A DNA stretch of 36,878 bases from a virus. Shown here in pieces: positions 27,007 to 36,618 of the stretch. The position numbers and the translations under genes are program-made. How positions within the stretch are numbered: position 1 is the stretch's first letter; each line of letters starts with the position of its first letter. The notes beneath the pieces were generated by a model. The model saw only the letters and a program-made list of their open reading frames with translations, was not told the origin of the DNA and did no database searches. The stretch is taken from positions 1-36,878 of IMG/VR virus record IMGVR_UViG_3300046005_000910. One strand, written 5' to 3'.

Positions 27007-27673
27007 TATGTATACACTGTGTAGCTTGACACCACTGACGACAAAGCCCATTAGGTTTAGTATTAAAAACCCCTGTCTCATAAGCTACTTCACGTTGCAT
27101 CAACGGCTCTTTTAATTTATCAAATATATCAAAGCGTTGGGTGTATGTGTAGTCCGCTTTAATGATCTCTTTAGATACTAAAAAAAGTAGCATCCCTTTA
27201 ATAACTTTAATAGTTGGGTACTTTAAAAATACGGCTGCTGCTAATAACCCAAGCTGCTTAACATCAGCATACTTGGCAGATTTACCTGTCTTGTAGTCAA
27301 TAATATAAGCCTTATCCTCAGCTTCATTAACAATAACTAAATCAGCAATCCCACGCCAGTATCGAGCCTCATCATTAAAATCACATAATGCATACTCACC
27401 TTCATTAAGGGTAATACCCAGCTCTAGCTCACAGAACTTATCGCCTTCGATATTATTAAGCGTATCGAGGTAGCTCTTAATATAGTTGTACTTTTCAGGC
27501 AACGGGGTGTCTGACCCTATATAGTGCTCTGCTGCTGAGTGGACATCCTTACCGTAAAGCGTAGCTGTAGTATCAGTATGGGGTATGTATTTTAAAACCT
27601 TATGTGCCTCATAACTTTTCGGACACGTGATAAACATATTTAAAGAACTGTAACTAAAGCTAGGCGCTTTCAT
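26981..27673 (-). CDS. RecB/Cas4-like PD-(D/E)XK nuclease with probable Fe-S cysteines
   Basis: ATG at 27673 (230 aa) overlaps the stop of the HNH gene as ATGA; an ATG four codons earlier (27685) is possible. Numbered from 27685, the protein shows Cys21 in ITCPKSYE, His49 in [12 protein letters not shown], Asp115 in RGIADLVI, and Asp130-Tyr-Lys132 in IIDYKTGK. Cys215, Cys219 and Cys224 follow in [12 protein letters not shown]. One N-terminal and three C-terminal cysteines around the nuclease core match the Fe-S arrangement of AddB/Cas4/RecB-like exonucleases. It may process ends during phage recombination. No cas genes or CRISPR array occur in the window. Confidence 0.88.
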
Positions 27674-28152
27674 AACCACGCCCATTTCTTATTGTTTACT
27701 ATCTTAGATATATGAGCTGGATGAACTTGATACTTTACAGCTAAATCTTTTTGCGCAATTCCATCCTCGGTATGAGAAGCCCTAATATTAATTATATCTT
27801 GCGCGGATAGTTTAGCATTACCTGAAGCTTCTCCTCTAGCACTATTTGTTCGGCCTTTTATATCTCTATCATAAGCATTATCCTTAGCTGTTCCTATAAA
27901 CAAATGCTTAGGATTTACACAACTTCTATTATCACAGGTATGACATACTTGATCGTTGGTATGTATTCTATTAAGAGTTAGTGATATTCCAGCTATATAA
28001 GCAGATACGCGGTGAGCATATACTTTACAACAACTCCCAATACCAAGCTGCCCATACCCGTTTTTCTGTTTATATGCTGTCCACTCCCAACACTCGTCCT
28101 CACCTTTGACGTTTACCTTAGACCAAAACCTTAGTATGTCACCCTCGTTCAT
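27670..28152 (-). CDS. Free-standing HNH endonuclease with C-terminal helix-turn-helix
   Basis: This is a 160-residue protein. The HNH_3-type core includes [18 protein letters not shown] (His47), [20 protein letters not shown] (Cys70, His71, Cys73, Cys78, Asn80, His83) and AKDNAYD. The C-terminus [47 protein letters not shown] is a resolvase-like helix-turn-helix that would read the target site. It sits directly upstream of the PD-(D/E)XK gene, with the two genes coupled by ATGA, which suggests a recent insertion that captured the nuclease start region. Its domains differ from the two other HNH genes nearby. Confidence 0.9.
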
Positions 28153-30031: not shown

Positions 30032-30878
30032 TTATACCTCTGCTAAAGACTTACCTATTTTTCCCTCTGCAGCTAGGGGTAATCCCTGCATCCACAAAGG
30101 CGTTTTACACATCTCTTCCATCAAGAATGCTAATGCTTCTTGAGCTTGTTCTTCAGGTACTACTAAATAGAGAGCGTCATGTACTGATAATGCTATTGGG
30201 TATCGTTTCGCTATACGTACTGTTGCTTCTGCTAGTATACATCGTGCAGTACCTTGCACCAAGTTGTTTGTTAGCTTACCCCCATACAACCTATCGTACC
30301 CATTGCGTAGTTTATATTTGTATCCTTGTTCTCCTGTTTTCTCATCTATGACATTAGCTAGTAGTGGGTATTGCATGTATAACCCAGAAGGAAACCGTAT
30401 ACCTTTTTTACCCTCAACCTTATATAAGTCGTTCGGGCCAAATGTATACTCTCTATCCTCAGCAATGGCTTTAATAGCTCCACCGCATGTTTTCCATAAC
30501 CCTGTAATGCCTGTGTAAGTGCCACGATATAAGTCAACTATCCGCTTAGACTCCACCTCACCCAAGTCTGTACCCGACCCAGACTTTACAGCCTCTCTAA
30601 GCTTTGCCGCTCCCACACCAAATATAAGTCCGAGTTGGGAAGTCTTTCCAATAAACCGTTGAGGCTTAGTAACCTCATCATAAGGCACATTAAATGCCTT
30701 ACTTGCAAACTCCTTGTATAAGTCCCCACCCTCACCTAATAGCCTTAGTGCTTCTGTCTCACCTGCTACCCACAACCCAACTCGCAACTCAATGTTAGAT
30801 AAGTCAGCTCCTACAATAGTGTATCCTTTAGGTGCAACAATAGATTCCTTGATCTTAGAGTCTCTAGGAATATTTTGA
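30032..30878 (-). CDS. DNA polymerase I family (family A), exon 2: palm/fingers/thumb part
   Basis: Spliced to 31726-32705, this completes a 608-residue protein. After the splice the frame reads QNIPRDSKIKESI, then motif A VGADLSNIELR (catalytic Asp352 in the spliced protein). Motif B is RFIGKTSQLGLIFGVG with Arg401, Lys405 and Leu409; the last occupies the position of E. coli Phe762. Then LTNNLVQGTARCILAEA follows. Motif C is SVHDALYLVVPEE, keeping catalytic Asp561 but having Ala where most family members have Glu. This exon has no start codon of its own; a TTG at 30787 is merely internal. It is the replicative polymerase for the phage. Confidence 0.92.
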
Positions 30879-31725
30879 CCTTGTATTCAAGGGAAGTCGC
30901 TACTCTTCCCCCCGTTCTCTTATGAACTGCTAACTATTACTAGCTAGAGTAGACTATATCAACGCCCGTATAGGGCGATTACCGTTTCCATTACCAATAG
31001 CTTGTAATGTACTCCCATTTCAGGGATAGTCGTTAGGCATTTAATTAATAATGTTTCTTGGTCTATCAAATAATTGTAGTTGGTCTAAAGCCCAGTTTAC
31101 ATGAATAGCAGCATCTTTTTCATTTGTAAATCTTTTTTGGTAGTATGTTTTACCCTTATGCCTAATACCTGCTTTCCACTTACCTCTAATTTTATCGTAC
31201 CCTACATTGTGGTACTTAGAGGCACTGCTTAACTTTAATCCTAAAGTGGGTACGTTATAAACCGTAATTCCTAATTCATAAGCTTTACGTTTATTTTCAC
31301 TGCTTGTGACCCATTCTAAATTACTACTTTTATTGTTTAGCTTATTTCCGTCTATATGATTAACTTCTCTTTTAGATTCTGGGTTATCTATAAAAGCTTC
31401 GGCAACTAATCTGTGCATTAGTCTATTTACGTGCACCCCGTTTAATTTTAGCCCTACTTTTTTATACCCTGAATTTATAGTGTGAGTTTTTAAGTTTTTT
31501 CTATAGTTAGAAATACTACCTAAATTAGATATTTGATATACCCCATTTAATTCTTTTATAGGCAGCCATATTTCATTATTAATATTTAGCACGGGATTGT
31601 CCTCTGGTATATTTTTAAAAGTATATTATAGTACTCTTTCTAACATACCGCAAGGAGTTTCCCCGTTTAGGTAATTTTCGATACACTATTACTAGTGTAA
31701 AGCTCTCTGTAGCTAAGCTACGTTA
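30879..31725 (-). mobile_element. Group I intron (td-like, group IA2 type) in DNA polymerase gene
   Basis: The 847-bp insertion separates KVNF from QNIPRD. Exon 1 ends in T (AACTT) and the intron ends in G (ACAAGG), as group I splicing requires; the split codon is TT|T (Phe). Core elements resemble the T4 td intron: TACCTAAACGGGG and GACAATCCCGTGCTAAAT on the 5' side, TGCCTAACGACTATCCC and GATATAGTCTACTCT on the 3' side. The HNH gene occupies the P6-region loop between them, as the endonuclease ORF does in td. The P5-region arm (AT-rich, around 31600-31650) looks longer than in td. Class and boundaries are inferred from motif comparison and reading frame. Confidence 0.93.
31041..31592 (-). 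CDS. Intron-encoded HNH homing endonuclease: NUMOD4, HNH, AP2
   Basis: This is a 183-residue protein. NUMOD4-like N-terminus (EIWLPIKELNGVYQISNLGSISNYRKN); HNH_3 core with LMHRLVAEAF (His60) and EVNHIDGNKLNNKSSNLEWVT (His79, Asn91); C-terminal AP2-like domain (KYHNVGYDKIRGKWKAGIRHKGKTYYQKRF). The start is GTG at 31590-31592, with AGAGG nine bases upstream; both lie within the conserved intron core, so translation and RNA folding compete for the same nucleotides. It would cut intron-less polymerase genes and copy the intron into them. Confidence 0.92.
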   Translation of the reverse strand: MLNINNEIWLPIKELNGVYQISNLGSISNYRKNLKTHTINSGYKKVGLKLNGVHVNRLMHRLVAEAFIDNPESKREVNHIDGNKLNNKSSNLEWVTSSENKRKAYELGITVYNVPTLGLKLSSASKYHNVGYDKIRGKWKAGIRHKGKTYYQKRFTNEKDAAIHVNWALDQLQLFDRPRNIIN

Positions 31726-32705
31726 AAGTTTACTTTCTGCCCACCACCTGCAGCCCATCGACCCGTTGCCGTTCCGTAGTAATTAAGTGGGATAGGTAGA
31801 GTACCCATACGTTTTGCAATACCTATGAACCGCTCAGTACGGGTCTCCTCAATGGTACTCTTAACACCCAGCCTAACTGCAACTAAAGTCTGTACCATTA
31901 TATTAGGATGCTCAAGTAAGTCTTTAAGTCCGTCATCTGTTTTAGCAAAAGCATACGTCAGCTTACCTGTAGTAGGTGATATTTTCATGGGTACTTGTGC
32001 CCCACAATCCTCTAACAACTTAGCAAACTTAGGGTTACTCATAATCTCAGCCTTATCTACCACTATCTTATTAAGCAGTTCTTCCTTAGCTGTTCTTACT
32101 TGATACAAATGGTTCTCAAGTGCAGGTAGGTCAACCTCAAGTAAAGGCTCTACCCCCATTTTAATAGTTAGAGATATTAGTTCTAACTCAGTCGTACTAA
32201 AATGGGGTAAGAGCTTTTGAAATAACAAGTACGCAAGTTCTGTATCATTAATGCAATACTCACCATAAGCGGCTAACTCTGCGGGGCTAAAGTCTTTTAG
32301 ATGTTTACCTAATGCATTGACAACCTCAGTACCTTTAACACCTAGCTCATAATACTCAACTAACTTAGCTAAGCTGCCGCCTACTGATATACCATGCACA
32401 GCTCTAGCCATTGACAAGGTGTCGATATATTTAGCAGGGGTAATACCATAGTAGAGAGATAAGATACTTGCATCAAAGAAACAGTTGTGTGCTATTAAAG
32501 CAATCTCTTTCCAATTAAATTGATTAAGCACTTCCATTATCTCGAATCGAGTGCCTGTATACCACGCGGCTGGTGTATCCCCCAATTTAATACTTAACCC
32601 AATAACTTCAAACTCATCAGAGTTTATATACTCTTCTGTCGGTAATTTAGATAAGCTGTGTGTCTTGCTATAGAACGACTCAAAGTCTAAAACCATAATA
32701 TTCAT
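31726..32705 (-). CDS. DNA polymerase I family, exon 1: 3'-5' exonuclease and start of palm
   Basis: The start ATG at 32705 has GAGG at correct spacing and overlaps the upstream stop by ATGA. The first residues MNIMVLDFESFYS give exonuclease Asp7 and Glu9. HNCFFDASI and AAYGEYCINDTELAYLL supply the later exonuclease acidic residues. The exon runs to YYGTATGRWAAGGGQKVNF, the conserved palm segment before motif A. Unspliced reading adds only three residues before a stop (31713), so an intact enzyme requires intron removal. Typical of replicative family A polymerases in podo-like phages. Confidence 0.93.
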
Positions 32706-35214: not shown

Positions 35215-35430
35215 TTATAACTCCTGAACTATGTAAGTGGTACTATCAATTCTCATACCTATATCTGGAACAACCTCACCTTCTTCTGCTAATCGTAACA
35301 AGGCAATGCGTTCAGGTACAGGTGGGTCAAGGTCGGCTACGTCATTAAAAGATATAATGTCATTAGGTTTGAACACGACATTATCCATTGAGTAAGCCTT
35401 CCTTTCTTTTAAGTCCACACGAAGTGTCAT
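35215..35430 (-). CDS. Hypothetical protein (71 aa)
   Basis: MTLRVDLKERKAYSMDNVVFKPNDIISFNDVADLDPPVPERIALLRLAEEGEVVPDIGMRID. Small alpha/beta-looking protein, coupled to the VWA gene by TAATG. The pattern FKPNDIISFNDVADLDPPVPERIALLRLA looks conserved in related phage operons. Probably an accessory to the VWA protein or unrelated; unknown. Confidence 0.75.
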   Translation of the reverse strand: MTLRVDLKERKAYSMDNVVFKPNDIISFNDVADLDPPVPERIALLRLAEEGEVVPDIGMRIDSTTYIVQEL

Positions 35431-36581
35431 TATTTAACCCGTAATACCGTACCGAATGGAGGCACAGTGGTTTTATTATCGACCATCACCCATAGCACTG
35501 GGTAAGGTGGTGCTGATGCAGGTATAGTAATCCACCCATCTGTAATGATAATGCAGACTACAGGTTCTAACTTATTAGTAGCATTATACTCAAAGATACA
35601 GGTACTATCAGAACCACCGCCCCCCTTAACACAAGTAGACGCTATCATACCATCGTACTCACCCTCTGTATAAATCTCATGTGATGCAACTGCTGTATCC
35701 CAATACAACAAGTCTACTTTCTCAGGGGTCACATTATCACATATAGTCACTAACTCAGACAAGGCTTTTGTTATCTCTGTACTACCGATTGAACCTGATG
35801 TATCTATAGCCACACAGATGTTACCTACTGACTCACTAATCTGACTCGGCATATACATATCCTGCTGTAACCAACGTCTATTGGGTTTAGCCCAAGTGCT
35901 ATCACCTTTACCAGCACATACACTAGATACAAACTCTCTAAGCTGTTCCTTCCAATCGACTTGAGATTGCATCATAGCTTCAAAGCCCACATCTACATCA
36001 CCGCCCTGCTTACCTGCCAGTAACGCTCCAGTTCTAACAGCACCCTCTATCTCTTTACGCAAGGCTTCCTGCTCCTCTGCACCTAGCTGCTTAGCTCCCT
36101 CCCAGTCGTGCTCGTCCATAGGCTCACCGCCTTTACCCTTACCATCCTCTCTATCTTTCTTAAGTCTAGCGAACACCTCACCACTATCAAGACCACGATA
36201 GCTCTCGTCAAGTAGCCCACCTTTAGGCATAGATATAAAAGAACCATACTTATCTAAATCAAACAGTTCTAAATTCACAACGTAGTCTGTCGCTCTATTA
36301 GCTAAGTCAGCGTCTTCCTCAAACAACTTACGCCATGTAAACAAATGCATATACATACAATGCTTGACCTCATGCAATATGAGAAACCTAAGCTCAGCAT
36401 CGGTAAGCGTCTCAACGTATACTCTACCGTATATCTTATCCCTCCCATTAGTGCAAGCGGTAGGACAATCATCACTAACCGATGTATTGCCCATCATTAA
36501 TAACCCTGCATAAGCTAAAGTTTTTTTATCCTGCATTAGTGCAATGTGCGCTCGAGTCAATCTGTCTTCAACACTTAACAT
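35430..36581 (-). CDS. VWA domain protein with HExxH metallopeptidase-like N-terminus (DUF2201-like)
   Basis: The start at 36581 (MLSVEDRLTRAHIALMQDKK) follows GGAG; an upstream start at 36599 is less likely. Residues 70-74 (HEVKH in FLILHEVKHCMYMHLF) form a zinc-type HExxH. The C-terminal half is a von Willebrand A fold with MIDAS DTSGS at about 260-264 (ICVAIDTSGSIGS) and a later IITDGW. This is the metallopeptidase-VWA pair usually found next to a MoxR-type AAA ATPase; no such partner is present in the window, so it may lie beyond the right edge. 383 residues. Possible role in disassembling or maturing protein complexes. Confidence 0.85.
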   Translation of the reverse strand: MLSVEDRLTRAHIALMQDKKTLAYAGLLMMGNTSVSDDCPTACTNGRDKIYGRVYVETLTDAELRFLILHEVKHCMYMHLFTWRKLFEEDADLANRATDYVVNLELFDLDKYGSFISMPKGGLLDESYRGLDSGEVFARLKKDREDGKGKGGEPMDEHDWEGAKQLGAEEQEALRKEIEGAVRTGALLAGKQGGDVDVGFEAMMQSQVDWKEQLREFVSSVCAGKGDSTWAKPNRRWLQQDMYMPSQISESVGNICVAIDTSGSIGSTEITKALSELVTICDNVTPEKVDLLYWDTAVASHEIYTEGEYDGMIASTCVKGGGGSDSTCIFEYNATNKLEPVVCIIITDGWITIPASAPPYPVLWVMVDNKTTVPPFGTVLRVK

Positions 36582-36598
36582 TTTAATTCTCCAATACA

Positions 36599-36618
36599 AC
36601 CCCTGTAAAGGCAGGGGT
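36599..36618 (-). promoter_or_regulatory. Stem-loop in leader of VWA gene
   Basis: ACCCCTG-TAAAGG-CAGGGGT, a 7-bp stem with 6-nt loop, lies about 18 bases upstream of the VWA start. There is no T-run on the minus strand, so it is more likely a leader structure than a terminator. Weak evidence beyond the perfect stem. Confidence 0.55.

Follow-up and report, generated by a model that had tools for sequence, protein, structure and literature searches.

In the T4 td intron, RNA structure keeps the endonuclease silent: early transcripts sequester the ribosome site of I-TevI in a hairpin, the enzyme is made from a late internal promoter, and td splicing suffers when the hairpin is disrupted (PMC2988022, PMC3073962). 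Work on I-TevI by Gibb and Edgell, as relayed in these two papers, showed interference of endonuclease translation with td splicing. Edgell and co-workers cautioned that ORF predictions might be wrong where endonuclease genes overlap intron cores extensively, and put forward "core creep", with alternative 5'-side starts among its forms (PMC3073962). Phage DNA polymerase genes with an IA2 intron and an HNH ORF in P6a are known from Pf-WMP3 (I-PfoP3I), Phi-I and W31 (I-TslI), with splicing and nicking demonstrated for the Pf-WMP3 intron (PMC3428280). Insertion at a Pro|Asn site has been reported for the Pf-WMP3, SPO1 and Bastille introns (PMC3428280).

The insert in the polymerase gene

The window analyzed here, 36,878 bases long, spans an entire IMG/VR virus record. 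On its minus strand, where all features described below lie unless another locus is named, an insert of 847 nt (31725..30879) splits the gene for a family A DNA polymerase. Exon 1 (31726..32705; 326 codons plus TT) encodes the 3'-5' exonuclease part, carries Pfam domain DNA_pol_A_exo1 and ends in ...GGGQKVN-TT. Reading on past it gives F-N-V-A-stop (TAG), that is, a stop three codons after KVNF. Exon 2 (30032..30878) begins T|CAAAATATTCCTAGAGAC at 30878, which yields F-Q-N-I-P-R-D, and contains DNA_pol_A, with motif A (DLSNIELR) approximately 26 codons 3' of the junction. The break, its length and the restart at QNIPRD had been correctly described in an earlier note on this sequence. Its assignment of the host gene to PolA agrees with the Pfam domains; the host that it had set apart from td is not unusual, however, since IA2/HNH introns in phage pol genes are published (PMC3428280).

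An uninterrupted site with net gap 0 was found in most of the IMG/VR loci holding both halves of the gene, roughly a hundred in number, some being overlapping fetches of one contig; one such empty site reads GTAAACTT|CCAAAAT. These sites place the junction at AACTT|TCAA, with T as the last base of exon 1 and G as that of the insert. The note had seen both terminal bases, and the comparison with related phages that it proposed bore it out.

The insert is almost certainly a group I intron (30879..31725). Judged by its sequence, it is a further, unremarkable example of the known td-like IA2 class and is predicted to splice itself. An 18-mer, GACAATCCCGTGCTAAAT, and a 3' block, ATGCCTAACGACTATCCC, which flank an ORF on either side, are identical in T4 td. 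A covariance model (R1) covering the 3' half was derived from 18 td-like introns, with the window held out and the structure annotated by hand from the alignment. R1 matched the window at 30883-31044 (132.9 bits, E 3.5e-31) and gave no match in six intronless polymerase loci searched. The matched segment (30883..31044) comprises P7, P7.1, P7.2, the P3 3' strand, P8, P9 and later helices; P7.1 and P7.2, the mark of IA2 introns, are both in the model and both matched. Within R1 helices, 95.7% of cells were paired, with changes on both sides in 27 of 35 pairs, and slid versions of the structure brought pairing down to 35-47%. The long-range helix P3 (5' strand AUUACC, 31670..31675; 3' strand GGUAAU, 30978-30983) joins both halves and was paired at 6/6 positions in 54 of 55 introns, versus 3.7 on average with swapped partners, the observed value being favored by the choice of partner among a few offsets. 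P4 is formed by ACGGGG (31661..31666) and UCCCGU (31591-31596), and the core helices P3, P4, P7 and P8 are all present with covariation. When the intron was folded without its ORF (z -3.7), the expected helices formed in the minimum free energy structure, except for the P7 pseudoknot. That fold includes P1, in which the internal guide sequence GAGCUUUAC (31697..31705, read by hand) pairs with GUAAACUU of exon 1 (31726-31733) with one bulged C and a U.G at the splice site. The terminal U of exon 1 opposite a guide G, together with the intron-terminal G, is as expected of a group I intron.

The held-out match and the shared core blocks uphold the td-like group I assignment made in the note. Its suggestion that a failed Rfam search would speak against an intron serves poorly as a test: Rfam gave no match in the window, nor in td-like control loci including T4 td itself, and is therefore uninformative here. 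A genome scan found 21 stretches, none of which passed the core-ORF filter.

The point of insertion differs from that of related introns. In phi 1 and CRC2 the pol introns interrupt PNLQN between Pro and Asn, whereas the window's intron lies 5 nt downstream of the equivalent site, within an F codon. In the window's polymerase lineage a Val codon (GTA or GTG), with no terminal T, stands in place of that Pro, and the guide reads GAGC versus GGGC in relatives, matching CUU rather than CCU. We infer that loss of the T at the old site may have caused the intron to move.

An intein at this position in the window is disfavored, as the polymerase frame runs for only four codons before a stop. Inserts in L029, L092, L039, L061, L050 and L120 gave no match to R1, and the translated ones read as inteins. 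L029 (4957-6001), L092 (2507-3551) and L050 (4951-7084) are polymerase relatives with an apparent split intein near the window's site, consisting of an N-terminal part after TGRW or TGRF, an HNH-like ORF and a C-terminal part in three different frames. An in-frame, intein-like polymerase insert with a long HNH-like ORF in another frame is present in L039 (3144-4228) and L120 (2932-4001), and similar gaps are seen in L061, L086 and L121, with translation confined to L039 and L120.

The endonuclease start and the P5 arm

The ORF in the P6 region (31041..31592) is an intact frame of 183 codons with NUMOD4 and HNH_3 above Pfam cut-offs, lying between the td-like core blocks where the note had placed an HNH gene. 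Its sole PDB match, over residues 9-104 (E 3.9e-13), was 1u3e, an entry labeled HNH homing endonuclease that we take to be I-HmuI. Two more HNH endonuclease genes are found on the minus strand of the window, at 27670-28152 (phrog_1872/phrog_59) and 35430-36599 (phrog_1314).

From 11 codons upstream through codon 22, the GTG at 31592 is the only in-frame ATG, GTG or TTG, and the endonuclease very probably starts there. This GTG sits in P4, the 3' strand of which takes in its first two bases, and the Shine-Dalgarno-like AGAGGA (31600-31605) lies in P5, paired with the 5' strand UCCUU (31652-31656). Both signals are thus in the core, as the note had said. The same arrangement of a NUMOD4-HNH ORF with its start in P4 and ribosome site in P5 was found in 15 further introns. 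A ribosome site is present in all 16, the start codon is ATG in phi 1 and pSb-1, and 11 of the 16 have no alternative in-frame start in codons 2-22; these are counts over related introns (L229 left out of the start check and folds) and do not represent independent events. In pSb-1, P4 is AUGGGG/CCCAU versus ACGGGG/CCCGU, a compensating change (partner C to U) that keeps the pair at the first base of the ATG; in phi 1 the pair at the start-codon base is lost. T4 td also has a core GTG in frame with I-TevI, the annotated start of which is downstream, so frame alone proves nothing. The comparative case for a real-looking core start is made by the two ATG codons, the one compensating change in P4 and the invariable ribosome site.

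The P5 arm of the window is extended (31600..31656), confirming what the note had perceived. In the 18-mer set, P5 is at least 48 nt long in 14/14 core-start HNH introns (50-74 nt) versus 2/58 others, and AGGAC occurs in P5 in 14/14 versus 18/58. The 58 include L229, which has an ORF resembling GIY-YIG (VVYKYTNVINNKVYIGRT) and a P5 arm of another type. All 16 core-start HNH introns have an extended arm, the set having been drawn as the 17 introns in which both P5 and the ORF are long, from which L229 was removed on account of its ORF and its arm type. The same core start codon accompanies a short P5 in Acinetobacter phage APK44 (Autographiviridae; L003 2473-3163). In Erwinia phage pEa_SNUABM_40, the intron model matches twice, less strongly, near an HNH-matching gene (L268 1197-1389 and 2129-2302).

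Promoter-like content of P5 and proposed control of the endonuclease

Within the P5 arm of the window is the promoter-like sequence TTGCGG-N17-TATAAT (31625..31653). It was scored against shuffles with a weighted matrix of box frequencies; a plain consensus promoter scan with its own thresholds did not list it. Summed over the 16 arms, the score was 122.6 versus 82.3 for shuffles (sd 7.05; 0/1000), the promoter idea having come from these same arms. Taken singly, the window gave P 0.002, phi 1 and L201 gave <0.001, and about half of the arms gave >0.15; reverse strands also scored somewhat above shuffles. Five further arms, from introns with the ORF start downstream of the core, summed to 40.3 versus 25.4 (sd 4.2; 0/1000); these had been inspected visually before they were scored, and two of them are similar (L259, L261). 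Among nine arms the hexamers were 62-69% identical and the spacers 27%, a contrast favored by the selection of these arms for fitting the promoter pattern. Exact TTG-N20-TATAAT was observed three times in the window versus 0.82 expected. Statistically, P5 arms appear enriched for sigma70-like promoters, and we lean toward a predicted internal promoter in the arm of the window's intron.

The explanation that we favor, with moderate confidence, is a td-like intron in which folding of P4 and P5 would hide the endonuclease start and a transcript from an internal P5 promoter would expose it. The IA2 intron would excise itself from the polymerase mRNA and would be mobile through homing by its NUMOD4-HNH endonuclease. 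As P4 and P5 fold in the full-length pre-mRNA, they would conceal the ribosome site and start, and splicing would be protected. A sigma70-type promoter in the extended arm would give rise to a shorter transcript, starting near 31618 and lacking the 5' strand of either helix, from which the endonuclease would be translated. In the predicted fold of the window's pre-mRNA, the unpaired value of AGGA is 0.01. Predicted AGGA accessibility averaged 0.14 in the full transcript and 0.37 in the shorter one and rose in 16/16 introns, a rise that removal of the partner strand makes likely anyway and that was computed with transcript starts assumed from the best-scoring promoter boxes. The effect on the start codon in this fold was weak (0.30 versus 0.38).

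Translation of the endonuclease from the unspliced polymerase transcript, with ribosomes at P5/P4 competing with folding and the P5 arm serving a structural role only, is possible though rather doubtful. Such competition on one RNA, which the note had proposed, draws on the location of the ribosome site and GTG within P5/P4, on the known disturbance of td splicing by translation (PMC2988022, PMC3073962) and on APK44, where a core start is combined with a short P5. The first of these stands and the second was already established for I-TevI; however, the association of long P5 with the HNH family and the promoter-like content of P5, which the note had not taken up, are left unexplained by such competition, and together suggest an internal transcript instead.

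Two further readings concern the element itself. That the group I intron carries an endonuclease which is inactive or not made, and is a passenger heading for loss, seems improbable: the GTG start in place of ATG and the closest relative found, just 63% identical, would fit decay, but the 183-codon frame is intact, both domains exceed their cut-offs and the I-HmuI match spans residues 9-104. Even less credible is that the insert is no intron, whether the polymerase is produced in two separate pieces or some other element interrupts the gene. The lack of any Rfam match in the window could be cited for it, were T4 td not missed as well. In the frame of exon 2, no ATG, GTG or TTG comes before the one at 30787, which would leave a separate product without the QNIPRD segment and motif A, and the held-out model match, P3, the P1 U.G, the terminal G and the exact empty sites are all as a group I intron would have them.

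Returning to the internal-transcript model, we judge the chances to be about even that it describes a widespread phage intron subfamily in which promoter, ribosome site and start have merged into P5/P4, such that folding for splicing would silence the endonuclease and an internal transcript would be translatable, not spliceable. No P5 promoters or P4 starts were described in the open-licence papers searched, and to that extent the merged signals and the link of this HNH family with an enlarged P5 are new. The model is specific on how a mobile intron could keep splicing apart from synthesis of its enzyme.

Comparison with known introns

The polymerase intron of Vibrio phage phi 1 (L001) shares with the window an HNH protein that is 50% identical from residue 1, a start in P4 (ATG), an extended P5, here with TTGGTA-N17-TATAGT, and a DNA polymerase host gene. 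It differs in its Pro|Asn site, 5 nt upstream of the window-equivalent site, and in an A.A mismatch facing the start-codon base. The SPO1 and Bastille pol introns (I-HmuI, I-BasI) encode the same kind of HNH enzyme, also in a polymerase gene. Unlike the window, both are inserted at the Pro|Asn site (PMC3428280), and the SPO1 ORF is in P8 with a 9 nt overlap (PMC3073962). In Pf-WMP3, by contrast with the window, the ORF starts in P6a, the ribosome site is in P6b and insertion is between Pro363 and Asn364.

T4 td has core blocks identical to those of the window, with the ORF between them in the P6 region, but it encodes a GIY-YIG enzyme with a separate P6-loop hairpin and an ATG downstream of the core, has a short P5 and resides in a thymidylate synthase gene. 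The arrangement in the window nevertheless likely parallels the logic of I-TevI, with the core helices themselves acting as the hiding structure.
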